Origin: a virus
IMG/VR virus record: IMGVR_UViG_3300033148_004210
Coordinates: 1 to 64,000 of that record
Reading direction: 5' to 3' (one strand)
DNA length: 64,000 nt
Part shown: positions 32,163-60,320 of the stretch, piece after piece
How positions within the stretch are numbered: the stretch's first letter is position 1
Layout of the letters: each line of letters starts with the position of its first letter
Notes under the pieces: generated by a model
Told to the model about the DNA's origin: nothing
Databases searched by the model: none
What the model saw: only the letters and a program-made list of their open reading frames with translations
Translations under genes and position numbers: made by a program

Positions 32163-32342
32163 TTACACCTTATAGAATTTGTCAACATCGTGTCCTTGAC
32201 CGTTTCTTATTTCCATCCATTCAATACATTTAAGAGCACAATCTAAACCTTTATCATGAGGTTGTTTAGCTATTTTCCTGTTCTCTATTGCATCTAAAAT
32301 CGCGTCTTTGGCTAAATCTATTATTTCTTTTTTTGTAAACAT
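32163..32342 (-). CDS. Small helical protein (59 aa)
   Basis: A 59-codon frame, MFTKKEIIDLAKDAILDAIE and on to KFYKV, fills the gap between two operon genes. Its ATG overlaps the stop of the upstream reductase (TAATG), the same coupling used elsewhere in this genome. It includes CALKCIEWMEIRNGQGHDVD. No function recognised. Confidence 0.6.
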   Translation of the reverse strand: MFTKKEIIDLAKDAILDAIENRKIAKQPHDKGLDCALKCIEWMEIRNGQGHDVDKFYKV

Positions 32343-33184: not shown

Positions 33185-33196
33185 TCTTTTTTATCC

Positions 33197-33511
33197 TTAT
33201 TCGTTATATTTTTTAGCTAAATCAGGATACCAAAAACTTGAAACAGTATTTGACCCTTCTATTTTATCATCAATTTCATTTGTTCTTAATTGGGTTCTTA
33301 CCATTTCTATAGGAATTCGTTTAGTTGTTTCTATTATCGCAAACCCTCCATTATGTTCGAACCCTAAAGAATGTAACATTTTTAAAACTTTATTAAAATG
33401 CTTACTATCTTCTTTAGAATATATTCGAGTTTCAAGACAAGTATATAATCGAGGAACTACAGAATTATTATAAGAACATCTGGTTATAATTTGACCATAA
33501 TGCCATTTCAT
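33197..33511 (-). CDS. Hypothetical protein, copy 1 of a duplicated gene
   Basis: The 104-residue protein (MKWHYGQIITRCSYNNSVV ... SSFWYPDLAKKYNE) is almost identical to the product of 60295-60630, differing mainly after DLAK. It interrupts the three sugar-nucleotide genes and overlaps the dehydratase stop by 4 bases. No family is recognised; VEMVRTQLRTNEIDDK-like helical and beta segments suggest a small folded domain. Its presence in two unrelated operons suggests recent mobility. Confidence 0.7.
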   Translation of the reverse strand: MKWHYGQIITRCSYNNSVVPRLYTCLETRIYSKEDSKHFNKVLKMLHSLGFEHNGGFAIIETTKRIPIEMVRTQLRTNEIDDKIEGSNTVSSFWYPDLAKKYNE

Positions 33512-33516
33512 TTTAA
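33216..33516 (-). repeat. 301-bp dispersed duplication, copy 1
   Basis: This block matches 60335-60635 at a constant offset of 27119 with about ten substitutions and no visible gaps, roughly 97% identity. It covers most of the 104-residue gene and a few bases before its start. Similarity stops abruptly at both ends. Confidence 0.9.
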
Positions 33517-34491
33517 GTAGCCTCCTCTTTTAAGTAACTCTTTAATTTCTTCTTTTGTCATAAGCTTTTGATATGAATTATATTCTTCTAAAGTTGTTTT
33601 CTTATATCCTATATTATTTGCTGAATCCGCTTCATTGGTAATTAAATAATAATTCTTACCGTATTCATAAGCATTTGAAGTTTCATGTTTAGAGATAAGA
33701 ACTTCATCTATCTTTTCACCAGGTCTTATACCCATTATTTCTATTTTAGTATCTTTATTACCATAATATTCTTTCATAACTTCGGCTAAATCTATAAGCT
33801 TGCATGAAGGCATTTTCATAACAAACAATCCACCATTAATACCACTTCTCATAGCGACAAATAAAAGTTTAATTGCTTCTGGTAAAGTAAGGAAATATCG
33901 AGTCATTTCTTTAGAAGTTACCGAAATTTTATTAAATCGTTTAATCTGGTCTATCCAATGAGGCACTACTGAACCTGCTGTGCCTAAAACATTACCACCC
34001 CTTACAACCATAAATTTAGTTTTTTCACTTAATTTTGAGGCATTAAGCATGAGTTTTTCTCCTATAGCCTTAGTCATACCATAAGTATTGATTGGAAGAA
34101 CTGCTTTATCAGAAGAAACATCCACTACTAATTCAACCTCATTATCAATAGAAGCTCTTATTATATTTCGAGTGCCATTAATATTCGTTTTTATCGCTTC
34201 ATAAGGGAATTCTTCACAAATGGGAACGTGCTTGAGGGCTGAAAGATGAAAAACGTAATTAACCCCCTTACAGGCAAATTTAAGTTTACCATAGTCTCTG
34301 ACATTACCAATTTCTATTTTAATGCGAGGGTCATTGAATTTTCTCTTCATGGATACTTGATTGAATTCATTACGAGCAAGGATTTTAATTTGTTTTACGT
34401 CGAATTGTAGTAACTGTTTAGTTAATTCTTGACCCCAACTCCCAGTTCCTCCGCTTACCAGAATTATTTTTCCTTTAAACATATTTCCCAT
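33508..34491 (-). CDS. UDP-GlcNAc 4,6-dehydratase/5-epimerase (FnlA/WbjB/CapE family)
   Basis: The 327-residue SDR protein has ILVSGGTGSWGQELTKQLLQ (nucleotide site), IEIGNVRDYGKLKFACKGVN, FHLSALKHVPICEEFPYEAI, SSDKAVLPINTYGMTKAIGE and VVRGGNVLGTAGSVVP. These are hallmarks of CapD-like 4,6-dehydratases. The 2-epimerase gene next to it supports the FnlA/WbjB branch over PseB. Expected reaction: UDP-GlcNAc to a UDP-2-acetamido-2,6-dideoxy-hexulose with C5 inversion. Overlap with the next gene indicates one operon. Confidence 0.78.
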   Translation of the reverse strand: MGNMFKGKIILVSGGTGSWGQELTKQLLQFDVKQIKILARNEFNQVSMKRKFNDPRIKIEIGNVRDYGKLKFACKGVNYVFHLSALKHVPICEEFPYEAIKTNINGTRNIIRASIDNEVELVVDVSSDKAVLPINTYGMTKAIGEKLMLNASKLSEKTKFMVVRGGNVLGTAGSVVPHWIDQIKRFNKISVTSKEMTRYFLTLPEAIKLLFVAMRSGINGGLFVMKMPSCKLIDLAEVMKEYYGNKDTKIEIMGIRPGEKIDEVLISKHETSNAYEYGKNYYLITNEADSANNIGYKKTTLEEYNSYQKLMTKEEIKELLKRGGYLK

Positions 34492-35571
34492 TTATATTCT
34501 CCCTGTTAAATATTTAATAATTTTTTCCGACACGTTTAAATCCATATAACCTTCTGGCATATCCCAATTTCTTTTAGAAGTTACCATTAATTCTGTGCAT
34601 TTTAAAATACTTTTTCCATCTATTCCTGATAATATTGCACTACCTACTTCAATAGTTTCAGGTCTTTCCGTTGAATTACGACAAATAACTGTAGGAGTTT
34701 TTAAAATTGTCCCTTCTTCACAAACTGTTCCCGAATCACTTATAATACATAAAGCATTTTTTTCTAATTTTACGAAGTCAAAAAATGATAAAGGTTCTAA
34801 AAATTTAATATTTTTGTTAAGAGCTTTCAATCCCCATTTATCCAGCTTTTGTCTGGTTCTTGGATGGATACTTGCGATTATAGGTAAATTATATTTACTT
34901 GCAACTAATTGTAAACCGAATATTATTTCATATAATTTTGTATATTCATCAACACACTCAGCCCGATGAAACGTAGCTAAAAAATAACCTCTTGAATTTA
35001 GATTTAATTTTTTCAATATTTTACTTGCTTGTATTTTAGTTTCATAAAATTTTATTACTTCTCTAATAGGATTACCCGATATAATTATTTTCTTTCTATC
35101 TATACCTTCTTTACATAAATTTCTTCGACTTCCAGGAGTATAAGGAAAATTATAGGTAGAAACATGGTCAATTATTTTGCGGTTAATCTCTTCAGGAACT
35201 TCTTTATTATAACATCTATTACCAGCTTCCATATGGTAAACAGGTATTCCCATTCTTTCCGCTATAATTGCAGATAACCCTGAATTTGTATCGCCTAAAA
35301 CTAATACTTTATCTGGTTTTTCTCTAATAAATATCTTCTCAACTTCTCTTAAAATAATACCGATTTGTTCTCCCATACTTCCTTTAGCTCCTAAATAGTA
35401 ATCGGGTTGTCTTAATCCCAAATCTTTAAAGAATATATCACTAAGTTTAGGGTCGTAATTCTGACCCGTATGAATCATAATATGGTCACAAACTTTATCA
35501 AGTTTTGGCATAATCCGAGATAGTCTAATAGTTTCAGGTCTAGTTCCTAAAACTGTAATAATTTTATCCAT
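34492..35571 (-). CDS. UDP-N-acetyl-L-sugar 2-epimerase (FnlC/WbjD/CapG family)
   Basis: The 359-residue protein belongs to the UDP-GlcNAc 2-epimerase superfamily, with ITVLGTRPETIRLSRIMPKL, HTGQNYDPKLSDIFF, VLVLGDTNSGLSAIIAERMG, HMEAGNRCYNKEVPEEINR and IISDSGTVCEEG. The TGQNYD and RLSR variants resemble WbjD/FnlC rather than WecB. Expected role: the last step, inverting C2 to give UDP-L-FucNAc or UDP-L-QuiNAc. The gene directly abuts the dehydratase. Confidence 0.8.
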   Translation of the reverse strand: MDKIITVLGTRPETIRLSRIMPKLDKVCDHIMIHTGQNYDPKLSDIFFKDLGLRQPDYYLGAKGSMGEQIGIILREVEKIFIREKPDKVLVLGDTNSGLSAIIAERMGIPVYHMEAGNRCYNKEVPEEINRKIIDHVSTYNFPYTPGSRRNLCKEGIDRKKIIISGNPIREVIKFYETKIQASKILKKLNLNSRGYFLATFHRAECVDEYTKLYEIIFGLQLVASKYNLPIIASIHPRTRQKLDKWGLKALNKNIKFLEPLSFFDFVKLEKNALCIISDSGTVCEEGTILKTPTVICRNSTERPETIEVGSAILSGIDGKSILKCTELMVTSKRNWDMPEGYMDLNVSEKIIKYLTGRI

Positions 35572-37270
35572 TTAAATTTCTCCCATTAAAGTTATCGTTC
35601 AACGCTTTTTTCATACATAAACCTATGACTTTATCAAATTCTTGCCAATTTTCTTCACAAACTTTATTTACCATTTTACCAGCTAAAGGATGTCCAGCAT
35701 ACCAATGTAATCCTATAGTATTTTTTGTTATTCTACATAAATTAGGTTCTGTGTATATTTCATTTATTTTAGTAGCATTGTATGGATAAACTGTAGATTC
35801 GGAAATATTTTTAGGGAACAACACGGGAAATCTTTTATTTATCGATTCAATAGAAGAGAATTCTTTATTTAATAATTTAACTCCTATACTTTGATAATGA
35901 GAGGAATTAAATTTTTTACGAGCTTCTGCAAACAAATAATCGAAATATCTATTTTTAGGGGAAGATAACATAAATCCTATAGAATGACCATAGTCTTTTC
36001 CAATACAAACAACAGTATCTGTTTGATTATAATCTTCTCGATTAATTTTTATTTGATTCATAGATTCGAAATATATTATATCCATATCTGACCATAATCC
36101 TCCTTCAATAGCTAATAAATACCATCTTAAAAAATCGGATTTATGGACTTCTGAAATATTATTATTTACTCCCAAAGCTCTCATATCTACAGTAATAATT
36201 TCCACTCCCATCTTTTTTAATTTTGAAAAATAATTTGCACCTGTTAATTGATATTTTTGTTCATTAGTTGTCCATGTTTTTGTTTTGGTTGGAAACAGTG
36301 GAACATAAAATTTAATTTTCCAATCAGAATTAAATTTATGAAAAGATAATACTGTCAAATATCTAAGAAATGGTAATATTTCTTCTCCCCAATAAAAATG
36401 AGCAACTTTAGGAATTCTATTTAAATTCCATTTTATCTTTCTTTCCTTATACATGTCTATTAATTTTTTATTATCCTCACTGTCTTTCATTTGTCCCCAA
36501 ATTTTACCAACATTACTGTATATAATCCCTTCTTTATCTTTTTTTTCATATAAATTTTTATTATGATGATATAATTGCATAATACTTTTTAATCCTATTC
36601 TATGCCGAGGGTGATATAAATGAATAATAGTAGAATTTATTTTTGTATAAGTGCATCCATATCTTCTTAATCTCGCAATAAAATCTGTATCATCGTAAGC
36701 CCATCCAATAAAATCTTCATCGTATCCTCCAATAGTTAAATAATCTTTTTTATTCATTCCTAAAAAGAAAGGAAGATGAGTTTGTAAACCTTTTAAAGAA
36801 TTTACTTTAGACTTATCTATTATTTCTCCTTTAGTATTTTCAATATATTCTAAAAACAAACCTTTCCTATCATCTTTACCAAAAGTTTTAACCAATTTCT
36901 TTTTTTGGTTAATTAAATTTTTTATTACTTTTTGAATGGCTCGATTATCCATATGAAAAATTTCAGGACAAGTTAAAATAATATATTTACCTTTGGCTCG
37001 TTTAACTCCTATATTTATTGCATATCCTGGACATCTCCAGAAAATATGTTTCAAATTTCTTTGTCCTGTAAAAACATATTTAATATTTAATTTATTTTTA
37101 TATAGTTCACATATTTTTTCGGTTTCATCAGGAATTCCATCGTTTAAAACTATTATTTCAAAAGAATAAGAACATTTTTGTTGAGACAAGGAATGTAATC
37201 CCCATTTTAATAAATGTGCTCTTTTAAAAGAAGGTATTATTATCGAACATGTGGGTTTTTTAGCTTTCAT
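35564..37270 (-). CDS. Bifunctional glycosyltransferase: GT2 plus GT32-like
   Basis: In this 568-residue protein, residues 1-260 form a GT2 domain: CSIIIPSFKRAHLLKWGL, FEIIVLNDGIPDETEK, KYIILTCPE and GWAYDDTDFIARLRRYG (ED/DD motif). Residues about 280-560 form a GT32/DXD domain: VAHFYWGEEILPFLRYL, HKSDFLRWYLLAIEGGLWSD, then MDIIYF. Two linked transferases can add two successive sugars to a glycan. It overlaps the upstream gene by 11 bases and the epimerase by 8. Confidence 0.78.
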   Translation of the reverse strand: MKAKKPTCSIIIPSFKRAHLLKWGLHSLSQQKCSYSFEIIVLNDGIPDETEKICELYKNKLNIKYVFTGQRNLKHIFWRCPGYAINIGVKRAKGKYIILTCPEIFHMDNRAIQKVIKNLINQKKKLVKTFGKDDRKGLFLEYIENTKGEIIDKSKVNSLKGLQTHLPFFLGMNKKDYLTIGGYDEDFIGWAYDDTDFIARLRRYGCTYTKINSTIIHLYHPRHRIGLKSIMQLYHHNKNLYEKKDKEGIIYSNVGKIWGQMKDSEDNKKLIDMYKERKIKWNLNRIPKVAHFYWGEEILPFLRYLTVLSFHKFNSDWKIKFYVPLFPTKTKTWTTNEQKYQLTGANYFSKLKKMGVEIITVDMRALGVNNNISEVHKSDFLRWYLLAIEGGLWSDMDIIYFESMNQIKINREDYNQTDTVVCIGKDYGHSIGFMLSSPKNRYFDYLFAEARKKFNSSHYQSIGVKLLNKEFSSIESINKRFPVLFPKNISESTVYPYNATKINEIYTEPNLCRITKNTIGLHWYAGHPLAGKMVNKVCEENWQEFDKVIGLCMKKALNDNFNGRNLNG

Positions 37271-38228
37271 TTAACCAGCCTTGAATTTTATTGTCTATAA
37301 TAGAAGCTACTTTTTTCATATCTGTGCATTTTTGTATTTGACTGTCCCATTTCTTTTTATTTATTGGAGTATTTATTTCTTTTAATAATTCTATTTTATT
37401 ATTAAAAATTGGGATATTAAATCTATCAATATTATATTTAGGTATTGCTCCATTAGGACTTAATACTTTTATACCTCTTACTAACATATCAATAACACTG
37501 AAATTATAACTACCTACATGTGTAATTATAAAAGTCTCCATTGTTTGAGTTTTTTCTAAATAATCCATATAATCGGTTGCTTGTATAGGAATAATCCAAT
37601 TAGGTAATACCTTTAAATGCTCGTTTTTCGGATTTCCGCATTTCAAATCAATAGAACGAGAAATAAGACTGTATATTTTATATTCGTTTTTTATCTCCTC
37701 TAACCAATTCCAAATTCTTTTTGACCAAGCGTAATGTTTTATTTTCTCATTTTTCCAGGCATTTAAATATATATGGTCTAATAAAATAGATTTAGATTCT
37801 TTCGGAATATTAAAATAAAAATCAGAAATATAAGGAGCTGGAATTATTTCTGTTTTATTTTTATCCTGCTTAAAAGGAGCATTTTTAAACATAAAAGAAA
37901 AATCTGATAGTTCTCCTATTTCTAAAAACGATATAACTTTTTTACATTTCTTTTTTAATAACGATATGTTTTCTTGGGTAAAGAAAGGATGATAATTTAT
38001 TATTATAATAAAATCTACATTTGGTATTTTTGATAAGTCTAATTTTGGCATTGATAGTCCACTATAATTTTTATTGGTCTTTATAAAATAATCACTTTCG
38101 ATTAAAGTAATATGTTCCATTTGTTTAAAGGACTGTTCTAGTCCATAAGTAAGCATTGAAAAACATAGATTTATATGTCTCTTGTTTTTTACTGGATAAC
38201 CTAATATTAATAGTTTATATTTTTTCAT
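37260..38228 (-). CDS. Putative GT-B glycosyltransferase
   Basis: The 322-residue protein has a Rossmann-like start (YKLLILGYPVKNKRHINLCF) and a C-terminal half with ETFIITHVGSYNFSVIDMLV, then RGIKVLSPNGAIPKYN and a helix, resembling the acceptor/donor domains of GT-B enzymes. The pattern is weak and no donor can be named. Overlap with genes on both sides places it in the glycan operon. Confidence 0.5.
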   Translation of the reverse strand: MKKYKLLILGYPVKNKRHINLCFSMLTYGLEQSFKQMEHITLIESDYFIKTNKNYSGLSMPKLDLSKIPNVDFIIIINYHPFFTQENISLLKKKCKKVISFLEIGELSDFSFMFKNAPFKQDKNKTEIIPAPYISDFYFNIPKESKSILLDHIYLNAWKNEKIKHYAWSKRIWNWLEEIKNEYKIYSLISRSIDLKCGNPKNEHLKVLPNWIIPIQATDYMDYLEKTQTMETFIITHVGSYNFSVIDMLVRGIKVLSPNGAIPKYNIDRFNIPIFNNKIELLKEINTPINKKKWDSQIQKCTDMKKVASIIDNKIQGWLNES

Positions 38229-38796
38229 TTTTTAATGTTATTATATGTTCAATTACAAATCTTTTATTTAAATTATATTTTCGAGTATTGTTATCAGTAT
38301 AAAAATTCTTTTTGGGTTTTTTCCAATCATTACCATATAAAATGTTTAAATAAGATTTATAATCTAAAATTATTTTAACTTCTTTACCTAGAAACAAGTA
38401 TTCGTTTCTTTCTGATATTATTTTTCTTGGGAAATATCTGATATGTTGTTTACTTAAATCTATACAATAATAAATATCTTTTTTCTTACTTAAAAAATAT
38501 CTATCTATATCCACATGTAAAGAACTATCTTCTTCTATTTTAATCGACCAATTGCCTCTAATTAAAGGAATTTTTAATCCTCTTTTATATAAAGAACTTA
38601 AAAAAGCATTGAGTTTATTATAATCATCAAAAAAATCATTAGTTGTTCCTATATCTATATCTTTATCATATTTAATAAAATCTTTATTTCTCATAGCTCC
38701 TAATAATGTTCCAGCTTCTAAAAAATAATCTATATTATTTTCTTCTAAAGCTTCTATTACTTTGAATAACAATTCTTTTGCTTTTGTTTTATTCAT
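38215..38796 (-). CDS. LicD-family phospho(no)transferase, copy 1
   Basis: The 193-residue protein carries the LicD/fukutin core: NNIDYFLEAGTLLGAMRNKD, FIKYDKDIDIG (the D-x-D metal site), and GNDWKKPKKNFY near the end. LicD enzymes move phosphocholine from CDP-choline to glycans; relatives in phosphonate clusters are thought to move AEP from CMP-AEP. The nearby cytidylyltransferase-PEP mutase gene makes the second substrate attractive here. ATGA overlap with the next LicD gene. Confidence 0.75.
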   Translation of the reverse strand: MNKTKAKELLFKVIEALEENNIDYFLEAGTLLGAMRNKDFIKYDKDIDIGTTNDFFDDYNKLNAFLSSLYKRGLKIPLIRGNWSIKIEEDSSLHVDIDRYFLSKKKDIYYCIDLSKQHIRYFPRKIISERNEYLFLGKEVKIILDYKSYLNILYGNDWKKPKKNFYTDNNTRKYNLNKRFVIEHIITLKNEKI

Positions 38797-39368
38797 TTTA
38801 CATCCTTATATAAAGGCATAATAGATTGGTAACTTATTAAAGTATAATGTTTATAAGGTATTTTATTTGTCCTACCTTTTTTTCCATGTTGAGGTATTCT
38901 CCAATCATTGCCATATAAATAATTTAAATATTTTTCTGGATTATGAGGAACTTTAAATTTCCTTTCTAAGAAAATAAGAGTGTCTAATGAACTTATAAAT
39001 TCTTCTGGAAACTTACTTATCATATCTTTTAAATAAATGTTATAATATTTTCCTTCTTTTTTATAATGATAAACATCAAGAGGCACTTTATTAGCATTTA
39101 AAAAACATGTCGAAGCAAAATCATTCCAATTTATATGTGGATAAATATTAACTTTCTTTAAATCTGCAAGTATATTATGCCACAATTTACCATCTTTAAA
39201 ATACTTATATTTGACTCCTATATCAATATCAGCATCTCCTTTAATAAAATTATTATCTCGGATTGCTCCTAAAAGAGTCCCAGAAGATAAGAAAAATTCT
39301 ATATTATATTTTTCTAATACATCTGCCATTTTAAAAAGATAGTTTTTTAACCCTAAATTTTTACTCAT
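38793..39368 (-). CDS. LicD-family phospho(no)transferase, copy 2
   Basis: The 191-residue protein is a diverged paralogue of the preceding gene, with YNIEFFLSSGTLLGAIRDNN, FIKGDADIDIGVKY and YLNYLYGNDWRIPQHGKKG. Two adjacent LicD genes suggest two acceptor positions or two different sugars to decorate. It overlaps the fused endonuclease/decarboxylase gene by 8 bases. Confidence 0.75.
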   Translation of the reverse strand: MSKNLGLKNYLFKMADVLEKYNIEFFLSSGTLLGAIRDNNFIKGDADIDIGVKYKYFKDGKLWHNILADLKKVNIYPHINWNDFASTCFLNANKVPLDVYHYKKEGKYYNIYLKDMISKFPEEFISSLDTLIFLERKFKVPHNPEKYLNYLYGNDWRIPQHGKKGRTNKIPYKHYTLISYQSIMPLYKDVK

Positions 39369-40581
39369 TTATAGCCCTCATAAATCTTTCTTTAATTTGT
39401 TTTCCAGTTAAAGGAATTCTTGGAGCATTTCCTTTGCCTTTTTCTATTTTAATAACTATAGTATTAGGAGCTAACGATTTAAAATCACAATAATTAGAAG
39501 CTGTTTGTTGTCCTCCTGTTGAAGCATGGGTGTTGTTATCCAAAATATAATGATGTAAATTTTTAGGATTTAATTTTTTATGTGTTATTAAACTATTTAA
39601 TCCCATAAGGGTTTCTCCATCTCCTGTTATAACAACTATTTTCTTTTTGGTATTTTTTGCAATACCGATACCTATAGAAAGACAACTGCCCATTCCTCCT
39701 AAAAGATATAAATTTTTATCACTATCTAATATTTTATAAATCGTCCTTGAAGTCATGCCTAATGAAGATATTAACAAAGTATCTTTTTTTAATGTATATA
39801 AAATTAATTTAATCGCTTCCTCTCTTGTGGGATTTTTATTGTTTACTAGATACTTAAAATATTTTTTCCAAAATTTTCTGTTTATATTTGTTTTGCCATG
39901 ACATGATAAACAAAGACTTATAAGGTTATTAAAATTTAAATTATTTTTATTGTAATCTATATGATGGATACATAAAGATTTTTTTATTTCGGATTGTTTT
40001 ATACTACATAATTGGCAACTATATTTATCTCTTTTTCTAATTTCTTTTTTTAATCTTTCTGTAAATTCTATAGGATAAGGTTCAAAAGAAGAACCATTAT
40101 TCCAATGAGGACTATTTTCTCCTTTCTTTGCACATGCCCCACATCTTCCTAAACCAAAACAAGCGGAATCATAACAAATTTTATTTCCACATTCTATACA
40201 ATAATAAATTTGTTTGGTTTTTCCATCTTTATAATTATGATTTAATTTATCTTTTTTAGATTCGCTCAAACTTCTAATAGGAATTTCATGTATTTTTAAA
40301 TATTTAAAAACAGTAGTTATTGAACAATTCTTTTCCATTGCTATTTTAGAAGGAATTTTTGAATTTTTGATATATTGTTCATAAAGAAATTCTTTAGTTA
40401 AAATTTTATCCCACTTTTTTTGATGGAGGTTTCGTCTCGGAATATTATATTTTTTCATCCAATATAATATCACTTTATGAGAACAATCTAATTCAGATGC
40501 AATCCTATGTAATGATATTTTATTTTTTATATATTTCTTGATAAGCAATTTTCTTGTTATGTTGTATTTTTTCTTAGCCAT
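39361..40581 (-). CDS. HNH homing endonuclease fused to phosphonopyruvate decarboxylase C-terminal half
   Basis: In this 406-residue protein, residues 1-245 are a homing endonuclease: two HTH modules (ITRKLLIKKY and LTKEFLYEQY, each ending with K(Y/I)xIP), a ribbon (CIECG...CGAC), then HNH (RDKYSCQLC, LCIHHIDYN, LISLCLSCH). From about residue 247 (NPTREEAIKLIL) it is the TPP-binding half of phosphonopyruvate decarboxylase: SSLGMTSRTIYKI, GGMGSCLSIGIGIAK, VVITGDGETLMGLNSL, HYILDNNTHASTGGQQT. GDG and NN of the TPP motif are kept. The N-terminal half is the next gene (40574-40939). The nuclease apparently invaded the decarboxylase gene at the domain boundary and left the C-half in frame. Confidence 0.85.
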   Translation of the reverse strand: MAKKKYNITRKLLIKKYIKNKISLHRIASELDCSHKVILYWMKKYNIPRRNLHQKKWDKILTKEFLYEQYIKNSKIPSKIAMEKNCSITTVFKYLKIHEIPIRSLSESKKDKLNHNYKDGKTKQIYYCIECGNKICYDSACFGLGRCGACAKKGENSPHWNNGSSFEPYPIEFTERLKKEIRKRDKYSCQLCSIKQSEIKKSLCIHHIDYNKNNLNFNNLISLCLSCHGKTNINRKFWKKYFKYLVNNKNPTREEAIKLILYTLKKDTLLISSLGMTSRTIYKILDSDKNLYLLGGMGSCLSIGIGIAKNTKKKIVVITGDGETLMGLNSLITHKKLNPKNLHHYILDNNTHASTGGQQTASNYCDFKSLAPNTIVIKIEKGKGNAPRIPLTGKQIKERFMRAINE

Positions 40582-40939
40582 TTTGTTTTACATATTTTAT
40601 GTTTTTATAATTAAGTAAATTTAATAATTTAGGAGTTATTTTACTCATATGTCTATGATATTCAGGTTTTTTTCTTAGACTTATTAATAAATCTATTTCT
40701 ATGTCATAATATTGCATAATAGAAGTTAATAAAGTTAAACAAGAACCCAATCCACTATCTTGCATAAAAACTAAAGGATTTTTATCCATTAATTTTGCTC
40801 CTATCGCCATAGCCAAAGCTTCATCCTCTTTTGTGGCAATAATAACCTTATCATAATTTATTATTCCTTTAAATTTAGAACAAGGAACTCCCGTAATAAA
40901 ATCATGAGAATCGACCCATCGTTTTAATTTTCTATTCAT
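40574..40939 (-). CDS. Phosphonopyruvate decarboxylase N-terminal (Pyr) half
   Basis: The 121-residue protein matches the start of phosphonopyruvate/sulfopyruvate decarboxylases: FITGVPCSKFKGI, IIATKEDEALAMAIGAKLMD with the cofactor-activating Glu, LVFMQDSGLGSCLTLLTSIM and PEYHRHMSKITPKLLNLLNY. The full enzyme converts phosphonopyruvate to phosphonoacetaldehyde. Separate alpha and beta chains are normal in ComDE, so the pair could still be active. This half is shorter than usual alpha chains (about 165), so a terminal segment may be missing. It overlaps the endonuclease start by 8 bases. Confidence 0.8.
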   Translation of the reverse strand: MNRKLKRWVDSHDFITGVPCSKFKGIINYDKVIIATKEDEALAMAIGAKLMDKNPLVFMQDSGLGSCLTLLTSIMQYYDIEIDLLISLRKKPEYHRHMSKITPKLLNLLNYKNIKYVKQNG

Positions 40940-42188
40940 ATTTTAATTTTCTTCTTTTTGTTTCTTCTATAGGAGTAAGACTACGAAATTCGTCCAAAGT
41001 AGATATATACTTTTCTAATGATTTTGCGTTTTGTTTAGTTTTCAATATCTGTAATATTTTTTTAACTCCAAATATTTTTGCTCTCTGAGTTTGGTTCGCA
41101 AATATCACTATCGAATATCCAGCATCAAATAATTCTTTATTAGTAATATGTGGGAATTTTGAAGGCACAATTATTAATGGTATTTCTCTTTTCCAATATT
41201 TAGGAATCCCCAGGGCTTCTTTTCCAGTTTTGTCTTTTGAGTGCATTAAAATAAGGTCTGCACCACAATCAGCATAATAATTAGCTCTTATTAATGCTTC
41301 TTTTTTCCCGTATCCTCTAATAAGAGCCTCTGTTCTTGCTATAATACAAAAATCTTTTGTTCTTTGTATTGCTTTTCCAGCTTTAATTTTAGCACCATGT
41401 TTTTTCATATCTACTATAGGAATTTTTCCTCCCCAAAGAGAATTAGATTTTGGAAAAATATTATCTTCTATACAAATTGCAGATACTCCAATTTTTTCTA
41501 ATTCCTTAACTGCTCTTATAAATTGTTCTATATTCCCATATCCAGTATCGGCATCTACTATAACAGGAATATTAACAGATTCTACAATTGGTCTTGCAAT
41601 ATTTATCATATCCGTTAAATTTATAGTTTCATTGTCTACTAATCCTAATCGGGCACTTGTTTCAAAAGAAGAAACCCAAATACCATCGAACCCATACTGT
41701 TCTACTAATTTCGCTGTAATGGCATCATTAGCAGATACTATTACTAATTTTTCTTTAAAAGCATTTTTTAAAGTGTTTTTACTCCTAATATTTTGTAATA
41801 ATTTGGTAGTTGATAAATTAGGATAATAAGGAACTAAAACAGTTTTAATTCCCATTTCTTCAGCTTTTTTAGTATAAGGAGGTATAAAGTCATCGCCATG
41901 AACTATTATATTAACATCGTATTTTTTCAAGTTTTCATATGTTGTAGGGGATTCTTTATCTCTACAATCTTTGATTACCAAATCAATTTCTTTAATAGAT
42001 TTTAATATTTCCACTCTATCTTTATAAGGCATTATAGGTTTTCTTTTATAATCTTGAGTTATATTATCAGGATGCACTCCAATTATTAAATAATCTCCCA
42101 AAGCTTTAGCTTTACGGAAAAATTCTATATGTCCCCGATGCGGTATATCTGCCACTACATTAGCGTATACTATTACTTTATTTTTCAT
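40932..42188 (-). CDS. Cytidylyltransferase-phosphoenolpyruvate mutase fusion
   Basis: In this 418-residue protein, residues 1-130 are a nucleotidyltransferase: VYANVVADIPHRGHIEFFRK with the HxGH site, then LVPYYPNLSTTKLL. Residues about 145-400 are PEP mutase of the isocitrate lyase superfamily: IVSANDAITAKLVEQYGFDG, VSSFETSARLG, IPVIVDADTGYGN, EDNIFPKSNSLWGG. The mutase makes phosphonopyruvate from PEP; the cytidylyltransferase would charge AEP as CMP-AEP. The usual EDKX5NS signature reads EDNX5NS, while the gating-loop FPKxNS is kept. Such fusions are known in bacterial phosphonoglycan loci. Confidence 0.85.
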   Translation of the reverse strand: MKNKVIVYANVVADIPHRGHIEFFRKAKALGDYLIIGVHPDNITQDYKRKPIMPYKDRVEILKSIKEIDLVIKDCRDKESPTTYENLKKYDVNIIVHGDDFIPPYTKKAEEMGIKTVLVPYYPNLSTTKLLQNIRSKNTLKNAFKEKLVIVSANDAITAKLVEQYGFDGIWVSSFETSARLGLVDNETINLTDMINIARPIVESVNIPVIVDADTGYGNIEQFIRAVKELEKIGVSAICIEDNIFPKSNSLWGGKIPIVDMKKHGAKIKAGKAIQRTKDFCIIARTEALIRGYGKKEALIRANYYADCGADLILMHSKDKTGKEALGIPKYWKREIPLIIVPSKFPHITNKELFDAGYSIVIFANQTQRAKIFGVKKILQILKTKQNAKSLEKYISTLDEFRSLTPIEETKRRKLKYE

Positions 42189-43153
42189 AAATAAAAACTT
42201 CCTTTATAATCATTAAAAAATTGATTTCTAATTCCTTTTTTAACTGCCTTTTCATAAATTATTTTCGCTAAAGCAATATCGCAAATAGCTATCCCTATAT
42301 TATAAGCTATAATTTTTTCTTTATTATTATCTCTTGCTCTTTTTCCTAAAATAATTTCCCCTAATTCTGCATAAATGTTTGGTAATCCTCCGCTAAATTC
42401 TCCTTTTGATTTATAATATAAAGTTTGTTCTTTGTCATCGGTAATAGTTTTATCAAATTTCATAGCACAATTTTCCCATCCTCTATGATGAATAGGTAAA
42501 ACCAATACCCCTTCTTTTAACCAATTCGGATTAACAAAAGGTTTATTTACATAAGTAGTTGCTGTTAAAATAATATCCGAATCTTTTACTGTTTTTTCTA
42601 TTGATGAACAAATTTCAAAAATTAACTTTGTTGGGCGAAATCTTTTAATAAACCTAACAGCAGTGTTTTTATATCTATAAATTTTTATTTTCTTAATTTG
42701 TGGACATAATTTATATATAAATTGCAAGCAAGCTACTGATTGGACACCTGCACCTATAATTGCAAGGGTTTTTGCTTCTTGAGTAGCAAAATATTTCGCA
42801 GTCAACCCAGCCATTACTCCTGTTCTCATAGCAGTAAGCCAACTAGCTTCCATTACTGCTAAAGGATGTCCTGTAATCATGTCATTTAATAAATAAGTGC
42901 TAATTACTTTTGGAATATTTTTATTAGTATTTTTGGGAAAACGACTTACCCATTTAATTCCTGACATATTGTATTTCGGAACATAAGAAGGCATTGAGGT
43001 AAAAAATATACCATCTTCAGGAGCAATACTTACTTTGGCTGGCATAAAAACTCTTTCGTTTGCGTGTTCTTTTAAAACATCTACTATCGCATTTAAACAT
43101 TCATTAAAAGTAATCTTTAATGATAATATTTGTTTATGAGATAAAACAATCAT
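42185..43153 (-). CDS. Ornithine cyclodeaminase/mu-crystallin family dehydrogenase
   Basis: The 322-residue NAD(P)-dependent protein has FMPAKVSIAPEDGIFFTSMP, GIKWVSRFPKN with the substrate-binding Lys, AMRTGVMAGLTAKYFA, LAIIGAGVQSVACLQF (nucleotide turn) and GGLPNIYAELGEIILGKR. Family members reduce or form imines of small amino acids. It lies between AEP transaminase and PEP mutase, with overlaps on both sides, so it probably acts on a phosphonate or an amino acid linked to it. I cannot name the substrate. Confidence 0.75.
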   Translation of the reverse strand: MIVLSHKQILSLKITFNECLNAIVDVLKEHANERVFMPAKVSIAPEDGIFFTSMPSYVPKYNMSGIKWVSRFPKNTNKNIPKVISTYLLNDMITGHPLAVMEASWLTAMRTGVMAGLTAKYFATQEAKTLAIIGAGVQSVACLQFIYKLCPQIKKIKIYRYKNTAVRFIKRFRPTKLIFEICSSIEKTVKDSDIILTATTYVNKPFVNPNWLKEGVLVLPIHHRGWENCAMKFDKTITDDKEQTLYYKSKGEFSGGLPNIYAELGEIILGKRARDNNKEKIIAYNIGIAICDIALAKIIYEKAVKKGIRNQFFNDYKGSFYL

Positions 43154-44240
43154 TTTTTACCTTCTTTACTGCTTTCAAAAACTTTCTAATATCTTTCTCT
43201 GTTATATTCCCTATATTTCCTAACCTAAAGGTTTTTTCATTGGTTAATTTTCCAGGATAAATAGTGAACCCTTTTTCTTTTAATTTATCATGAAATTTAT
43301 TAAAATCAAATTTTTTAGGTTCATAAAAAGTCGAAACTATCATACTTTTTTCCTCATCTATAAATAATAAAGGTCGAAATCCTAATTGTATCATACCATA
43401 TTCCAATTCCATAGAATTGCGACAATATCTTTTATATCGATTTATTCCCCCTTCTTTAAAATATTCTTTTAAAGCTTGTTTTAAAGAATATAAACATTGC
43501 ACCGCAGGTGTAAAAGGAGTTTGATTATGTTTATCAAAATGCTTATAATTACGCCATAAATTTAGATAATAAGACCTTATAGGATAATTTCGAGTTTTCA
43601 TAAGTGCCATTTTTTTTGCAATTACAAATGAAATTCCTGGCATCCCTTGTAAACATTTATTTGCTGAACCCATAATAAAATCGGCTTGAACTTTTTGAAT
43701 ATCAATAGGTATTCCCCCAAACGAAGATATAGTATCAACAATATAAATTTTTTTATGTTCTTTAACTATCTTTCCTATAGTTTCAATATCATTTAAAATT
43801 CCTGTAGTAGTTTCGTGATGAATTACTGCTACTGCGGTTATATCAGGATAATATCTAAAACAATATTCGATAGCATCTATTCTGATAGAAGTTCCCCATT
43901 CTGTTTTTATTGAAATAGTATTAATACCATAACTTTTTGCTATTTCTTCTATTCGTGTTCCATAAGCTCCATTTTCTAAAATCAATAATTTTCCATTTTT
44001 CGGAATAACAGAATTAATAGTGGCATCCATAACAGAAGTTCCTGAACCAGTAAATAATATAGAAGTATATTTTTTATCCCCATGAACTACTTTAAGTAAA
44101 TCTTTTCTAATACCTTCCATCACTGCCCCAAACTCCTTTTCTCTTGGACAAATATCAGGAACAACTTGAGCATATTTTACAGTGTCGGTAGTTGTTGCTG
44201 GTGCTGGAGTTAATATAATATTTCGTTTAATTTTTTTCAT
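43134..44240 (-). CDS. 2-aminoethylphosphonate-pyruvate transaminase (PhnW-like)
   Basis: The 368-residue class V PLP aminotransferase has NIILTPAPATTTDTVKYAQV, DICPREKEF, SILFTGSGTSVMDATINSVI, AVIHHETTTGILNDIE, VDTISSFGGIPIDI, and MGSANKCLQGMPGISFVIAK with the PLP Lys. These match AEP transaminase. In a synthetic setting it would run towards AEP, amination of phosphonoacetaldehyde. It overlaps the sulfotransferase by one base (TAATG). Confidence 0.82.
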   Translation of the reverse strand: MKKIKRNIILTPAPATTTDTVKYAQVVPDICPREKEFGAVMEGIRKDLLKVVHGDKKYTSILFTGSGTSVMDATINSVIPKNGKLLILENGAYGTRIEEIAKSYGINTISIKTEWGTSIRIDAIEYCFRYYPDITAVAVIHHETTTGILNDIETIGKIVKEHKKIYIVDTISSFGGIPIDIQKVQADFIMGSANKCLQGMPGISFVIAKKMALMKTRNYPIRSYYLNLWRNYKHFDKHNQTPFTPAVQCLYSLKQALKEYFKEGGINRYKRYCRNSMELEYGMIQLGFRPLLFIDEEKSMIVSTFYEPKKFDFNKFHDKLKEKGFTIYPGKLTNEKTFRLGNIGNITEKDIRKFLKAVKKVKNDCFIS

Positions 44241-45220
44241 TAATATTTCCTATAAGGTTTCCCAGAATGGAATCCATTGGCATTAAGCCATTTATAATGT
44301 TCTCTAACTGCATCCACACATTCTTCTTTTTTATAATCAAGAGTATATCCAAAATACTCCATTATATCTCCAAAATAATATTCAATAACTTTTCTTTGAT
44401 ATTCTGTTAAAATTTCCTTATAAATACCAATTCTATTTTTATTAATTCCTTTATAAATTTTAGTAAAACTATTTCCTTTCCATTCTACTCCACAACAAGT
44501 TGGATTAAGATTTAAAAGGGATTCTCTAATTCCTATCCATTGACATAATTCTGTCATTGATTTTTTTGGAGATTGCACTAACTTCTCATAACAAATATTT
44601 TTATATTTTGTAATTCCGAATTTAAGCCAATTATCTTTCGCCATATTCATACATAAATAACCTCTATCAATAAAATCTCTTAATAATCTTTCTTTACTGT
44701 CATATTGATTTTTGTAATGCTTATCCCATCCAGTTAAAATAGAAGCGAAATTATCTCTTGGGTCTCTAACTATATTTATAAATTTGGCATCTGGGTAGAT
44801 TTTAAAAATTTCATTTACATATATTTCAGAATGGGTATCTTTAGTAATTACAATTTTATCTTTTATTCTTATTTCTTTATCTAAAACATTTCTTACAGCA
44901 TCTATCATAGAAACAAAAAACCCACATACATCTTTATTGTGAATCGATAAAAGTGCATCAAAATTATTTTCTAATTCTTTCTGAAAAATCTCCTTTTTAC
45001 CCCATTTTAAAACTATTTGACACAAATCTTTTAATAAAAAATTCTTTATTCTATCTTTTTGTTGTTCTAAAGTATATTTAGATTTTAAATATTCAGGATA
45101 AAAAGAATACCAAAAATGAGTTTCATAAGGATAGACCCATAAATCAGGATGTCCATCTAAAAGACTAGCGAGTAAAGTAGTCCCTGATTTTCTATGTCCT
45201 CCAACAAATAAATGTTTCAT
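44240..45220 (-). CDS. Sulfotransferase (PAPS-dependent), long form
   Basis: The 326-residue protein has the 5'-phosphosulfate loop FVGGHRKSGTTLLASLLDGH and the 3'-phosphate site FINIVRDPRDNFASILTGWD, hallmarks of the sulfotransferase superfamily. YEKLVQSPKKSMTELCQWIG is the usual third region. It probably sulfates a sugar of the glycan assembled by the operon, using host PAPS. No PAPS synthase is encoded in the window. Confidence 0.82.
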   Translation of the reverse strand: MKHLFVGGHRKSGTTLLASLLDGHPDLWVYPYETHFWYSFYPEYLKSKYTLEQQKDRIKNFLLKDLCQIVLKWGKKEIFQKELENNFDALLSIHNKDVCGFFVSMIDAVRNVLDKEIRIKDKIVITKDTHSEIYVNEIFKIYPDAKFINIVRDPRDNFASILTGWDKHYKNQYDSKERLLRDFIDRGYLCMNMAKDNWLKFGITKYKNICYEKLVQSPKKSMTELCQWIGIRESLLNLNPTCCGVEWKGNSFTKIYKGINKNRIGIYKEILTEYQRKVIEYYFGDIMEYFGYTLDYKKEECVDAVREHYKWLNANGFHSGKPYRKY

Positions 45221-45398: not shown

Positions 45399-45553
45399 TT
45401 CTCTAATTCCTTATGAATTAAATAATGTTCTTTTAAAGCTTCGTTTAACCAGTTTTTTAACTGTATTCCTTTAAATAACCTATCACTTCTTACTATCCAC
45501 TTATGACCACATAAATAACATTCGTAACTTGTGGTGTCATAGAATTTTTTCAT
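45395..45553 (-). CDS. Small CxxC protein (52 aa)
   Basis: The 52-residue frame starts MKKFYDTTSYECYLCGHKWI, with one CYLC pair and a helical end (NWLNEALKEHYLIHKELEK). Its ATG overlaps the stop of the second sulfotransferase (TAATG). Half of a zinc ribbon, so a homodimer could bind metal. Function unknown. Confidence 0.6.
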   Translation of the reverse strand: MKKFYDTTSYECYLCGHKWIVRSDRLFKGIQLKNWLNEALKEHYLIHKELEK

Positions 45554-46137
45554 TATTTACTCCAATTTTTAGGGGGTTTTATATACTTTTGTAATCCGTT
45601 TATAGACTTTAAATCCAATAATTTCCATACTTCTTTTAGTTCTTTATCAGGATTTTTTACTAAAAATTCATACGATACAATATTACTAATATTTAAGTTT
45701 TTTTCTTCAAAATGAAGAAAACTAGCTACCATATGGTGTCTAAATCCTATATATAAATTCTTACTACATAATCCTCTAACACTATGTTTATCTTGTCCTA
45801 CCCAAGATTTATAAGTTTGTTCAGCATCTCTAACAATAAAAATAAACTTCGCTTCAGGAAATACTAAAGCCAATCTTCGCCAAGTCATAGCTTCTATACC
45901 AGCATTTAAAGCAAATTTAGCTCCCTTATATTTCCCAGGTGCATAAGAAAATTCTTTAATAATCTTTTTAACATAAGGGTCGTTTTTATATCTTCCTAAA
46001 TGAGAAACCCTAATACTGTGCCAAAGTTCATAAGGCTCAAATTTTATTTCTTGGACTTCAGGATGTTTTAATATTAAGTCTCTTAAAATGCTAGTGCCAC
46101 TTCGTCTCATACCAATTATAAAAAATAGTTTATCCAC
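45553..46137 (-). CDS. Sulfotransferase (PAPS-dependent), short form
   Basis: The 194-residue protein keeps the PAPS-binding loop FFIIGMRRSGTSILRDLILK and the FIFIVRDAEQTYKSWVG site, plus IVSYEFLVKNPDKELKEVWK. It is shorter than the other sulfotransferase and only distantly related, so the two probably act on different positions. It is the first gene of the glycan block when read in the minus direction. Confidence 0.75.
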   Translation of the reverse strand: MDKLFFIIGMRRSGTSILRDLILKHPEVQEIKFEPYELWHSIRVSHLGRYKNDPYVKKIIKEFSYAPGKYKGAKFALNAGIEAMTWRRLALVFPEAKFIFIVRDAEQTYKSWVGQDKHSVRGLCSKNLYIGFRHHMVASFLHFEEKNLNISNIVSYEFLVKNPDKELKEVWKLLDLKSINGLQKYIKPPKNWSK

Positions 46138-46141
46138 TTTT

Positions 46142-47566
46142 TTATTCCTTATTTAAATTTATTATACCGATATTTTCTGGAATATCGTTAAAATGATGCA
46201 AACACATAATTAATTGGAAAGGCAATCCTTCAAAAACTTGTAATATATGCTGTAAATTATTAGTATCAAGATTCGCAAACCCTTCATCTGCAATTACGAC
46301 ACCAGTATCGTTATTTTGTAAAAGTAAAGCCAACTTAAATGCAATCTGAAGCATTAATTTTTGTCCACAAGAAAGTTCTTTATACTTGTAATCTATATTA
46401 TTTTTTCGTAATTTAATCCCAAATTTTCCTTTAGTATTTACATCAAAAGATACAGTGAAATTAATTTTTTGTAAAATAGAATTTATTATCGGTTCTAAAG
46501 TTTTAACCGTCTCTGTTAAATAATAAGAAGAAATATTATCCAATTCTTTAATAGCTTGTTTAACTATTTCTTCATCTTTATTAGTATATATAAATTCTTT
46601 CATTTTTAATCGAGATTCTAATTTAATTTTTAAATTTAATAAGACTTGTAATTTATTACTAATGTTTTCTATAATAGTCCTATGAGAAGCGATAAGGTCT
46701 TTCATTTCCGCTATCTCTGAAGTCTTAGTTGCTAAAGAAGTATTAATCTCCTTAACTTCTTTTTCTATATCTACAGTTAATCTTTTTTGAGTAGTTTGAG
46801 GAATAACCTGTTTACATACAAAACAAGTTCTGTCTTTAGTAACTTTATTTTGATTATACTTTATAGTCTTTTTCCTTTGTTCTAATTGTCCCATTTCTCT
46901 TTCGGTTTTACGAAAATCGTTTTCAAATTCTCTAACAGTTTTAATTAGTTCTAAATTTTGTTCATCTAATTCTACATATTTACTATTTATAAGTTGTAAT
47001 CGTTTTTCACTAGGATAATGAGTAGAAGCTTGAATCCTGTCTTTATTATAAAGTTCTCTATTTCGTTTTATCTCTAATAATTTAACCCTCATATTATTAA
47101 AAATCTCATCTGAACCTGCAAATATAATTCTCTTTAAAGCAACATTGCCTTGTTCTAATAAATTGCTTTCTTTAGCAGAATCTATAACTCTAAATTTTTG
47201 AAAATTCTCCCTAGACCCTATTAAATCAGTAATAAATCTATTGCCTTCTGCACCTGTATCAAATTTAACTGGTTTATTGTCTTTAATAATAGAAAGTTTA
47301 GTAGGAAAACTTCTTTTTACGATATAGTTAGAGTTATTATGTTTAAATTCGAGTTCTACAGAACAGGATTTGGATACTCCTTTTGTAGGTAAATCGCTTA
47401 ATAAAGGATGTGTCGTGTAGCCAAACAGGGCATAAAGCAGTGATTCTAAGGCTACAGTGGTCTTTCCTGACCCGTTAGCTCCCTGCACCAATGTCATAGG
47501 GTCAAATAGGAATTTAGCCCCTTTAAAACACTTAAAATTCGTTAAACGAACAGTCTTTATAATCAT
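46142..47566 (-). CDS. SbcC/Rad50-like (T4 gp46-like) recombination ATPase
   Basis: The 474-residue SMC-type ATPase has IIKTVRLTNFKCFKGAKFLF, Walker A QGANGSGKTTVALESLLYAL, a short coiled coil with a CFVCKQ zinc hook near residue 250, the signature LSCGQKLMLQIAFKLALLL and Walker B TGVVIADEGFANLD. With the nuclease at 48706 it forms the complex that resects DNA ends for recombination-dependent replication. The coils are much shorter than in cellular SbcC, as usual in phages. Confidence 0.85.
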   Translation of the reverse strand: MIIKTVRLTNFKCFKGAKFLFDPMTLVQGANGSGKTTVALESLLYALFGYTTHPLLSDLPTKGVSKSCSVELEFKHNNSNYIVKRSFPTKLSIIKDNKPVKFDTGAEGNRFITDLIGSRENFQKFRVIDSAKESNLLEQGNVALKRIIFAGSDEIFNNMRVKLLEIKRNRELYNKDRIQASTHYPSEKRLQLINSKYVELDEQNLELIKTVREFENDFRKTEREMGQLEQRKKTIKYNQNKVTKDRTCFVCKQVIPQTTQKRLTVDIEKEVKEINTSLATKTSEIAEMKDLIASHRTIIENISNKLQVLLNLKIKLESRLKMKEFIYTNKDEEIVKQAIKELDNISSYYLTETVKTLEPIINSILQKINFTVSFDVNTKGKFGIKLRKNNIDYKYKELSCGQKLMLQIAFKLALLLQNNDTGVVIADEGFANLDTNNLQHILQVFEGLPFQLIMCLHHFNDIPENIGIINLNKE

Positions 47567-48471
47567 TTTAAACTCCTAATAAATTCCACTAATGTTTTAA
47601 TAGGTTCACCAGTTGCTTTATTTTTCTTTTCATCGAAAGCAGATGAGGCAATATCGAGGTGAATCCAATTATTAGGGTATTTAATGAATTGTTTAAGAAA
47701 CATCCCTGCCATAATTGTGCCACACTTTTTCTTTGAAGCATTTTGTATTCTTTTCTTGTTAAAATCTTTTTGTAGATAATCCCAAAGTGGTAAACGCCAT
47801 GCTAATTCTCCAGTTTTCATACTTGCTTTTTTATATGCGTGAGTAAATTCTTTAGTTGGTGTCATAAAAGCGGTTGCCTTTTTTCCTAACGCATAAGCAC
47901 AAGCTCCAGTTAAAGTCGCTACTGTAATAATTATATCGTTTTTTGAAGCGTTTAAATTCGTAATCGCTTCAGCCAAAATTAATCGACCTTCGGCATCTGT
48001 ATTCGTTATTTCAACTTCTTTAGTTCCTATTTTAATATAATCGCCAGGAATAATTCCATTAGGAATAAAATTTGTAGCTACAGGACAATAAGCAATTATA
48101 TTATCATTATCAAAATAAGAAGAAACTCCAAAAGCTACTGCCATCCCAGCCATATCTGCTTTCATTCCTAACATTTTAGTTTTTAAATCATATCCTCCTG
48201 CATCGAAAAGAATTCCCTTACCTACAATATAAATATTTCTCTTCTTTTTATCAATAGTGTTCATTAAAACAGAAGAAATTATTTTGGCATTTTCATGTTG
48301 ATTAGACATTAATTTAATAGGAGATTTAGAAGAAGTTTCGTTAAGTCCTAAACAAAAAAGAGAATACGCTTTTAATAATTTATCTTGATAATTATCAAGA
48401 TTTAATTTATTATAAGGCATATCAATTAATTTTTTACAAGCATTAATATAATAATCGAGTTTATTCTTCAT
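47563..48471 (-). CDS. M17 leucyl aminopeptidase, catalytic domain only
   Basis: The 302-residue protein has the M17 metal and catalytic motifs: IVGKGILFDAGGYDLK (Lys, Asp), MLGMKADMAGMAVAFG (Asp), ITNTDAEGRLILAEAI (Asp, Glu, Arg). The end (GTIMAGMFLKQFI, WIHLDIAS) also fits. Cellular enzymes have about 480-500 residues with an N-terminal regulatory domain, which is missing here. It lies between SbcC-like and SbcD-like genes with 4-base overlaps. It probably trims peptides in the infected cell; its place in a recombination operon is unexplained. Confidence 0.82.
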   Translation of the reverse strand: MKNKLDYYINACKKLIDMPYNKLNLDNYQDKLLKAYSLFCLGLNETSSKSPIKLMSNQHENAKIISSVLMNTIDKKKRNIYIVGKGILFDAGGYDLKTKMLGMKADMAGMAVAFGVSSYFDNDNIIAYCPVATNFIPNGIIPGDYIKIGTKEVEITNTDAEGRLILAEAITNLNASKNDIIITVATLTGACAYALGKKATAFMTPTKEFTHAYKKASMKTGELAWRLPLWDYLQKDFNKKRIQNASKKKCGTIMAGMFLKQFIKYPNNWIHLDIASSAFDEKKNKATGEPIKTLVEFIRSLK

Positions 48472-60160: not shown

Positions 60161-60320
60161 TTTCTTCCCATCTTTCTTCAGGAATGTCTCCTCGTTTTAA
60201 TCCTTCTTTAACTCTCTCTATATTTCCAGGTCTTCCCATAAGTTTGGCAATTCTTTCTAAAGTTTTGCCTTTTTGAAACTCGGCTATTATTTTTTTATCT
60301 GTTCCGTTTAAATGACCCAT
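60150..60320 (-). CDS. Small HTH-like protein (56 aa)
   Basis: The frame MGHLNGTDKKIIAEFQKGKT then LERIAKLMGRPGNIERVKEG has a helix-turn-helix look (IIAEFQKGKTLERIAKLMGR), as in resolvase-type HTH regions. It overlaps the gene on each side. It might regulate the recombination genes. Not confirmed by family recognition. Confidence 0.55.
   Translation of the reverse strand: MGHLNGTDKKIIAEFQKGKTLERIAKLMGRPGNIERVKEGLKRGDIPEERWEENEK

Follow-up and report, generated by a model that had tools for sequence, protein, structure and literature searches.

Bases 1-64000 of the 101,595-bp IMG/VR record IMGVR_UViG_3300033148_004210 (GC 29%; this 64-kb stretch is referred to as the window) include a tight minus-strand operon, 32342-45220, which probably represents a phage-owned cassette for phosphonyl tailoring (estimated probability about 0.7). 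Its products would make 2-aminoethylphosphonate (AEP), activate it with cytidine monophosphate (CMP) and put it on a glycan. In AEP, a small molecule, carbon and phosphorus are directly bonded (C-P bond). In the proposed route, PEP mutase (PepM) would convert phosphoenolpyruvate (PEP) to phosphonopyruvate, a phosphonopyruvate decarboxylase (Ppd) of the two-subunit RhiEF type (PpdAB) would yield phosphonoacetaldehyde, and the transaminase PhnW would form AEP with L-alanine as donor, which an alanine-dehydrogenase-like enzyme could regenerate from pyruvate. A cytidylyltransferase (CTase) domain would then convert AEP to CMP-AEP, from which one or both LicD-family transferases would move AEP onto a glycan sugar. 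The glycan itself would be built by glycosyltransferases of the cassette from UDP-sugars of a FnlABC-like route, and sulfotransferases would add sulfate. The families and the order of the genes were computed, and from them we infer every reaction, the regeneration of alanine, the substrate of the CTase and the acceptor. An earlier reading of the letters alone (the sequence-only reading) had proposed a pathway of this kind. The genes it named are found at the claimed positions, with family matches far beyond chance in hidden Markov model searches against Pfam and NCBIfam, and its AEP route with CMP activation (PepM, PpdAB, PhnW and the fused CTase domain) as well as its LicD transfer appear to hold at the level of sequence. 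Its reading of Ppd, its gene set and the assumed rarity in phages had to be revised.

The record is considered viral because its ends share an exact direct terminal repeat of 99 bp and because PHROGs matches identify genes for a tape measure protein, a baseplate-like protein, a DNA polymerase and UvsX. As the ends are identical over these 99 bp, the genome is probably complete. No tRNA genes were found within the window, and the terminase and portal candidates chosen by position at 96255 and 98616 (g179 and g181) had no match to a TerL or portal family. Between 45220 and 33508, each minus-strand gene either abuts its neighbour or shares 1-28 nt with it, a spacing that points to a single transcription unit and bears out the claim of one operon. 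Starting at 45220, the order is sulfotransferase, PhnW, a member of the ornithine cyclodeaminase (OCD)/alanine dehydrogenase family, the CTP_transf_like-PEP mutase fusion, Ppd alpha, HNH-Ppd beta and two LicD genes, followed by a GT-B-like protein, a two-domain glycosyltransferase, a WecB-type epimerase, a PseB/FnlA-type dehydratase, a small repeated open reading frame (ORF) and an RmlD-like reductase (Table 1). The same gene order is found in a sibling contig (L004).

The fusion protein, in which both a PEP mutase and a cytidylyltransferase had been claimed, indeed matched families for both domains and probably makes phosphonopyruvate and CMP-AEP. The PepM profile PF13714 reached 171 bits, above its cut-off, and the best NCBIfam match of PepM, TIGR02320, scored 245 bits, under the equivalog cut-off of 320. 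PDB matches were obtained with the PEP mutase of Mytilus (1m1b, E 8e-55) and, for the N-terminal part, with entry 5x3d. In the CTase domain (PF01467, 67 bits) the motifs HRGH (HxGH) and STTK (STT) are visible. The alignment with the Mytilus enzyme exhibits conservation of W44, S46, D58, D85, D87, E114, D115, K120, N122, S123, R159 and H190, which we take to be active-site positions.

For Ppd, the sequence-only reading had noted an enzyme in two pieces. Both halves are indeed present: TIGR03297 is split over two adjacent ORFs into the PYR and PP halves, which score 111 and 69 bits; the cut-off of 312 belongs to a model of the one-chain enzyme. The alpha subunit matched PDB entry 9iz3, "phosphonopyruvate decarboxylase alpha subunit" (E 1.5e-10), and the beta part matched TIGR03297 with E 7e-32. 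The best Foldseek match of beta was RhiEF chain 9iz4_B (E 7e-10), obtained with a model of the whole ORF that is of modest confidence (pLDDT 74, pTM 0.52) and was used for the beta half only. The Gly-Asp and Asn of the thiamine pyrophosphate (TPP)/Mg motif occur in all 27 aligned viral beta rows, and the Glu is found in alpha. A Ppd broken in two by mutation was rejected, as 34 of the 36 PepM-bearing viral records described below have Ppd matches, nearly all of them as two adjacent pieces. The split is thus the regular RhiEF-type architecture. A group I intron or another RNA element at the split was likewise rejected, with Rfam giving nothing at the gathering threshold and weak unrelated matches at relaxed E-values.

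What the sequence-only reading had missed is that the ORF at 39361 also encodes a helix-turn-helix (HTH)-HNH endonuclease (PF01844, E 6e-4, just under the cut-off). In the sibling, alpha and beta overlap directly and beta begins with MTRKEAI; at the same junction, the window phage reads NKNPTREEAI with a full HTH-HNH protein in frame ahead, and the ATG of the sibling is absent. An internal start for beta was considered and rejected, since the 25 codons before the junction contain no in-frame ATG, GTG or TTG. Ppd beta is therefore probably translated as an HNH-PpdB fusion. The HNH part is homologous to nine further ORFs of the genome, the stand-alone HTH-HNH paralogues end close to the fusion junction in the alignment, and the part appears to be a mobile-type endonuclease fused on. 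The ten related HTH/HNH ORFs lie at 3645, 6623, 8188, 14021, 15284, 22917, 29671 and 39361 in the window and at 92747 and 97895 elsewhere in the record.

The AEP transaminase exceeded its family cut-off, in line with the earlier assignment. Its best PDB match is 6pd1 (E 2e-82), a nucleotidyltransferase/aminotransferase fusion, with which the context of the catalytic Lys (SANKCLQGMPG) aligns. PhnW acts in both directions and is known from the breakdown of AEP, so the phage might use it catabolically and scavenge phosphorus from AEP. This is highly improbable, given that the committed biosynthetic pair of PepM and Ppd is present, that the operon genes include no recognised phosphonatase (PhnX) and that the nearest solved relative of PhnW is the fusion 6pd1. 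Inside the operon, an OCD/alanine dehydrogenase-family (SbnB-like) gene at 42185 was absent from the earlier gene set. Its product matched pyrroline-2-carboxylate reductase (6t3e) and alanine dehydrogenase (1omo) in the PDB (E ~1e-39) as well as TIGR02371 (ala_DH, 165 bits) and TIGR03944 (SbnB, 174 bits), both below their cut-offs. A homologue lies two genes away from PhnW in a Bacteroides metagenome-assembled genome (MAG; L058). We propose that the protein may act as an alanine dehydrogenase which regenerates the amino donor of PhnW.

The two LicD-type transferases stand as assigned before, both above the cut-off of PF04991. Among 11 aligned viral LicD rows, G29, D44, D46, D48 and D98 are invariant, so that DxD and one further Asp are kept throughout. 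The GTLLG...DxD motif and the nucleotidyltransferase (NTase) fold of the family are present. An AlphaFold model of LicD 2 (pLDDT 86) had human FKRP with Mg and CMP as its best Foldseek match (6kal, E 6e-9). FKRP transfers ribitol phosphate from CDP-ribitol to a sugar under release of CMP, which is the chemistry required here. These features support LicD as the putative enzyme moving AEP from CMP-AEP to a sugar.

Table 1. Predicted genes of the cassette and its surroundings in the window.
Feature	Position	Strand	Family evidence
Sulfotransferase 2	45553-46137	-	PF13469 E 2e-13
Sulfotransferase 1	44240-45220	-	PF13469 E 4e-24
AEP transaminase (PhnW/AepZ type)	43134-44240	-	TIGR03301 429 bits (cut-off 361)
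OCD/mu-crystallin family protein	42185-43153	-	PF02423 E 5e-56
CTase (CTP_transf_like)-PEP mutase fusion	40932-42188	-	PF13714 E 6e-50; PF01467 E 3e-18
Ppd alpha subunit (PYR half, 121 aa)	40574-40939	-	TIGR03297 E 3e-19
HTH + HNH endonuclease, ~245 residues, fused in frame to the Ppd beta N-terminus	39837-40581	-	junction, paralogue alignment
Ppd beta subunit (TPP-binding half), last ~158 residues of ORF 39361-40581	39361-39836	-	TIGR03846 E 2e-35
LicD-family transferase 1	38793-39368	-	PF04991 E 5e-13
LicD-family transferase 2	38215-38796	-	PF04991 E 2e-13
Conserved protein, probably a GT-B glycosyltransferase as judged by eye	37260-38228	-	no Pfam match
Two-domain glycosyltransferase (GT2 + DXD sugar-binding domain)	35564-37270	-	PF00535 E 1e-12; PF04488 E 1.5e-6
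UDP-GlcNAc 2-epimerase (WecB/FnlC type)	34492-35571	-	TIGR00236 258 bits, above cut-off
UDP-GlcNAc 4,6-dehydratase (PseB/FnlA type)	33508-34491	-	TIGR03589 285 bits, TIGR04130 258 bits, both below cut-off
RmlD-like sugar reductase	32342-33184	-	TIGR01214 97 bits, below cut-off
Possible glycosyltransferase (GT90-like)	31351-32160	-	PF05686 E 0.004, below cut-off
Nucleotide-diphospho-sugar transferase	30746-31378	-	PF03407 E 9e-8

The sequence-only reading considered the assembly of such genes in a phage unusual. This view could not be maintained, as a PepM profile search of IMG/VR yielded 36 viral contigs with PepM (several near-duplicates included), most of which are predicted hydroxyethylphosphonate makers. 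Their Ppd subunits measure mostly 102-129 aa (alpha) and mostly 151-169 aa (beta). Besides the sibling, the closest viral relatives share 60, 56, 52 and 47% PepM identity with the window phage, while the best 80 matches from 85,462 bacterial and archaeal genomes share at most 42%. In the PepM tree, two virus-only clades have 100/100 support, one of seven members that includes the window phage and another made up of 18 other contigs, and well-supported branches force at least two changes between viruses and cells. Two "Bacteriophage sp." records from human faeces (MT837901 and MT836947) and the drafts labelled "Listeria phage" and "Acinetobacter phage MD-2021a" are unverified, short or draft records and were rejected as phage evidence; the two faecal records fall among gut bacteria in this tree.

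The last step of the route appears to vary among these viruses. A phosphonate-type iron (Fe)-alcohol dehydrogenase, with TIGR03405 as best NCBIfam match (below its cut-off), is present in 31 of the 36 PepM-bearing records and absent from the window phage and its sibling, whereas PhnW above its cut-off was found among the viral records only in these two; a PhnW alignment scan of the viral contigs gave nothing beyond the sibling. This distribution predicts hydroxyethylphosphonate in most relatives and AEP in the present lineage. Similarly, LicD (10 loci) and a protein of 268-408 aa (15 loci; the window phage is included in the counts) never occur together. They may be alternative transferases, a notion weakened by the kinship of the loci. 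An identity of the latter protein as sulfatase/alkaline phosphatase looked plausible by eye and was dropped, with no Pfam or PDB support. In contig L024 (6882-9287), its domain forms the N-terminal part of an 801-aa protein that continues into CTase-PepM; in other contigs it is a separate gene next to PepM. Tentatively, and with somewhat less confidence than even odds would express, it could be proposed that tailed phages have a phosphonate-tailoring system of their own, independent and long diverged, with which they place C-P bonded tags on their virion glycans. Such a system would combine a virus-only PepM and a compact two-subunit Ppd with exchangeable end enzymes (Fe-alcohol dehydrogenase for hydroxyethylphosphonate or PhnW plus the alanine-dehydrogenase-like protein for AEP) and exchangeable transferases (LicD or the 268-408-aa protein).

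Twelve viral contigs (L037:3941-5191 and 11 others) carry B12-binding radical SAM genes near their PepM modules, which are possibly linked to phosphonate methylation. These genes, and the fact that PepM, Ppd, Fe-alcohol dehydrogenase and CTase steps are common to antibiotic pathways such as that of fosfomycin (Fom1; PMC6697681), would fit an operon whose product, instead of a glycan tag, is a small phosphonate, either free or attached to a nucleotide, that serves as antimetabolite or in phosphorus management. Such a product appears improbable: LicD, glycosyltransferase, nucleotide-sugar and sulfotransferase genes flank the module here and in the sibling, and the operon showed none of the oxidative tailoring genes that are typical of antibiotics.

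Regarding a complete FnlABC set for UDP-L-FucNAc, the WecB/FnlC-type enzyme is above its cut-off, the FnlA/PseB assignment is ambiguous and below, and the reductase is RmlD-like only. Between the sugar genes lies one copy of a 312-bp DNA repeat (96% identity, copies 27 kb apart), which encodes nearly identical proteins of 104 and 111 aa (33197-33511 and 60295-60630, both minus strand); a family search with these proteins gave no match. Beside its sulfotransferases, the sibling contains an adenosine phosphosulfate (APS) kinase and a nicotinamide mononucleotide (NMN)-adenylyltransferase-like ORF (L004:5038-6250). This pair, which the window phage lacks at that place, could possibly supply phosphoadenosine phosphosulfate (PAPS), and together with the sulfotransferases the APS kinase suggests that the glycan carrying AEP is also sulfated.

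As target of the tag, a glycan on a virion protein, made in the cytoplasm, has about an even chance, and the host surface a distinctly smaller one. A search of the genome yielded no match to a CDP-alcohol phosphotransferase, undecaprenyl priming transferase, polysaccharide flippase or MobA-like cytidylyltransferase, which speaks against a lipid product and a self-sufficient export of capsule. Moreover, the module adjoins head genes in some relatives: in L020 it is flanked by terminase-portal-head morphogenesis genes on one side and a possible capsid gene on the other, in L013 it comes right after protease and head genes, and in L017 right before terminase and portal. Both observations favour the virion. 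Alternatively, during infection or lysogeny the cassette could alter a surface polysaccharide of the host (capsule, O-antigen or teichoic acid) by placing AEP and sulfate on lipid-linked glycans and leaving the virion unmodified. This would resemble phage serotype conversion as well as the AEP cassettes in bacterial surface-polysaccharide loci (L058 with its flippase-like gene; PMC6697681; PMC8931226), and it would agree with the coding strand of the cassette discussed below. It would, however, need the priming transferase and flippase of the host, and in some relatives the module has terminase, portal or capsid genes as neighbours; we regard it as the main rival, though as less likely than the virion.

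Several observations weigh against a working AEP cassette of the virion. The PepM signature reads EDNIFPKSNS, with K116 (Mytilus numbering) replaced by Asn. It does not match EDKXXXXXNS, the PepM filter of Rice et al. (2019; PMC6697681), which would have dropped the phage protein. The CTase could favour a phosphonate other than AEP, and Ppd beta bears the HNH extension. In comparison with the sibling, Ppd is the least constrained part (dN/dS of 0.41 for alpha and 0.50 for beta), and a 25-bp deletion, be it genuine or an artefact of assembly, disrupts the frame of pepM in the sibling, so that the route may be dispensable. Finally, the cassette of the window phage is encoded on the same strand as the replication genes, apart from the head and tail genes, and this arrangement does not point to late expression.

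The mismatch in the signature is softened by bacterial homologues of the EDN type that adjoin Ppd and PhnW (L051, L052, L054, L063 and L074) and by Asn at position 116 in related phages (L004/L014 and L013). In the near relatives L015, L018, L019 and L021 the signature loop is altered further (VQDD..., IEDVEP...) with K.NSLW retained, and PepM activity is doubtful there. Taken together, the HNH insertion at ppd beta, the odd PepM motif and the broken pepM of the sibling could indicate that the pathway is decaying and non-functional. Nevertheless, this is improbable, as all frames are open in the window phage, a split Ppd is the rule in viruses and the CTase-PepM fusion has the lowest dN/dS measured in the region (0.07-0.12). 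The corresponding values are 0.31 for PhnW, 0.18 for the OCD-like protein, 0.20 and 0.32 for the LicD proteins and 0.14 for the 37260 protein. These ratios indicate purifying selection, which acts most strongly on CTase-PepM. Catalytic residues, a further point raised by the sequence-only reading, are kept in PepM with the sole exception of K116N, and the TPP, pyridoxal phosphate (PLP) and DxD motifs are retained.

Two further genes of the window stand outside the cassette. A 1066-aa ORF (52451-55651, minus strand) combines in one open frame a DNA polymerase (phrog_262) and, at its C-terminus (residues 839-1063), a domain for Mom-like DNA modification (phrog_1384). Another ORF (47563-48471, minus strand) encodes the catalytic half of a leucyl aminopeptidase (M17) and is conserved in the sibling.

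In bacterial phosphonate loci, a PepM fused to a CTase is a common arrangement (Rice et al., 2019; PMC6697681). The bacterial AEP loci (Pnt/AepXYZ; PMC6697681) share with the cassette a PepM with fused nucleotidyltransferase, Ppd, PhnW and LicD-like or glycosyltransferase neighbours, as does the Bacteroides MAG with its PepM-CTase, Ppd, PhnW, NTP transferase and OCD genes and an adjoining flippase-like gene. Unlike these loci, the cassette is located in a phage, has a compact split Ppd, EDN instead of EDK, an HNH domain on Ppd beta and sulfotransferases, and is without a flippase or priming enzyme match. RhiEF of Bacillus subtilis ATCC6633 (9iz3/9iz4), the best match by sequence (alpha) and structure (beta), is also a two-subunit Ppd, but the viral subunits are shorter and, in the window phage, beta carries the endonuclease extension. 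Fom1 of the fosfomycin pathway (PMC6697681) has the same domain order, CTase then PepM; its CTase acts on hydroxyethylphosphonate, whereas the AEP transaminase of the phage predicts AEP as substrate.

Among mobile elements, a predicted PEP mutase-cytidylyltransferase fusion in a surface-decoration gene region has been reported for virus-like Borg elements (PMC12660748). Unlike the window phage, Borgs are archaeal giant extrachromosomal elements, and a complete AEP route is not among the features described in the available text of that report. The isolated Vibrio phage Va2 (MW073017; L007) contains PEP mutase-like and Ppd-like genes in its GenBank record, but its PepM is very divergent with an extra C-terminal region, its Ppd is unsplit and neither PhnW nor LicD is annotated within 1-116 kb. 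The PepM-like protein of Va2 has the signature EDKX6NS and is encoded beside ribonucleotide reductase genes and the Ppd-like gene. No report of phage phosphonate biosynthesis modules, be it a full AEP route or a recurrent viral module, was found in the open-access literature, the Borg report being the nearest. The chemistry itself is known from bacteria.

Phosphonoglycans have hitherto been familiar from the surfaces of bacteria, and predation by phages has been put forward as one of the reasons for their synthesis there (Acker 2022, PMC8931226). Phages themselves seem to own phosphonate-tagging chemistry, with gene sets recurring in dozens of viral contigs. If phages indeed encode such recurrent, dedicated modules, they would be able to modify glycans with hydrolysis-resistant C-P bonds, environmental phosphonates may be partly viral, and 31P nuclear magnetic resonance (NMR) on virions would become a direct question.

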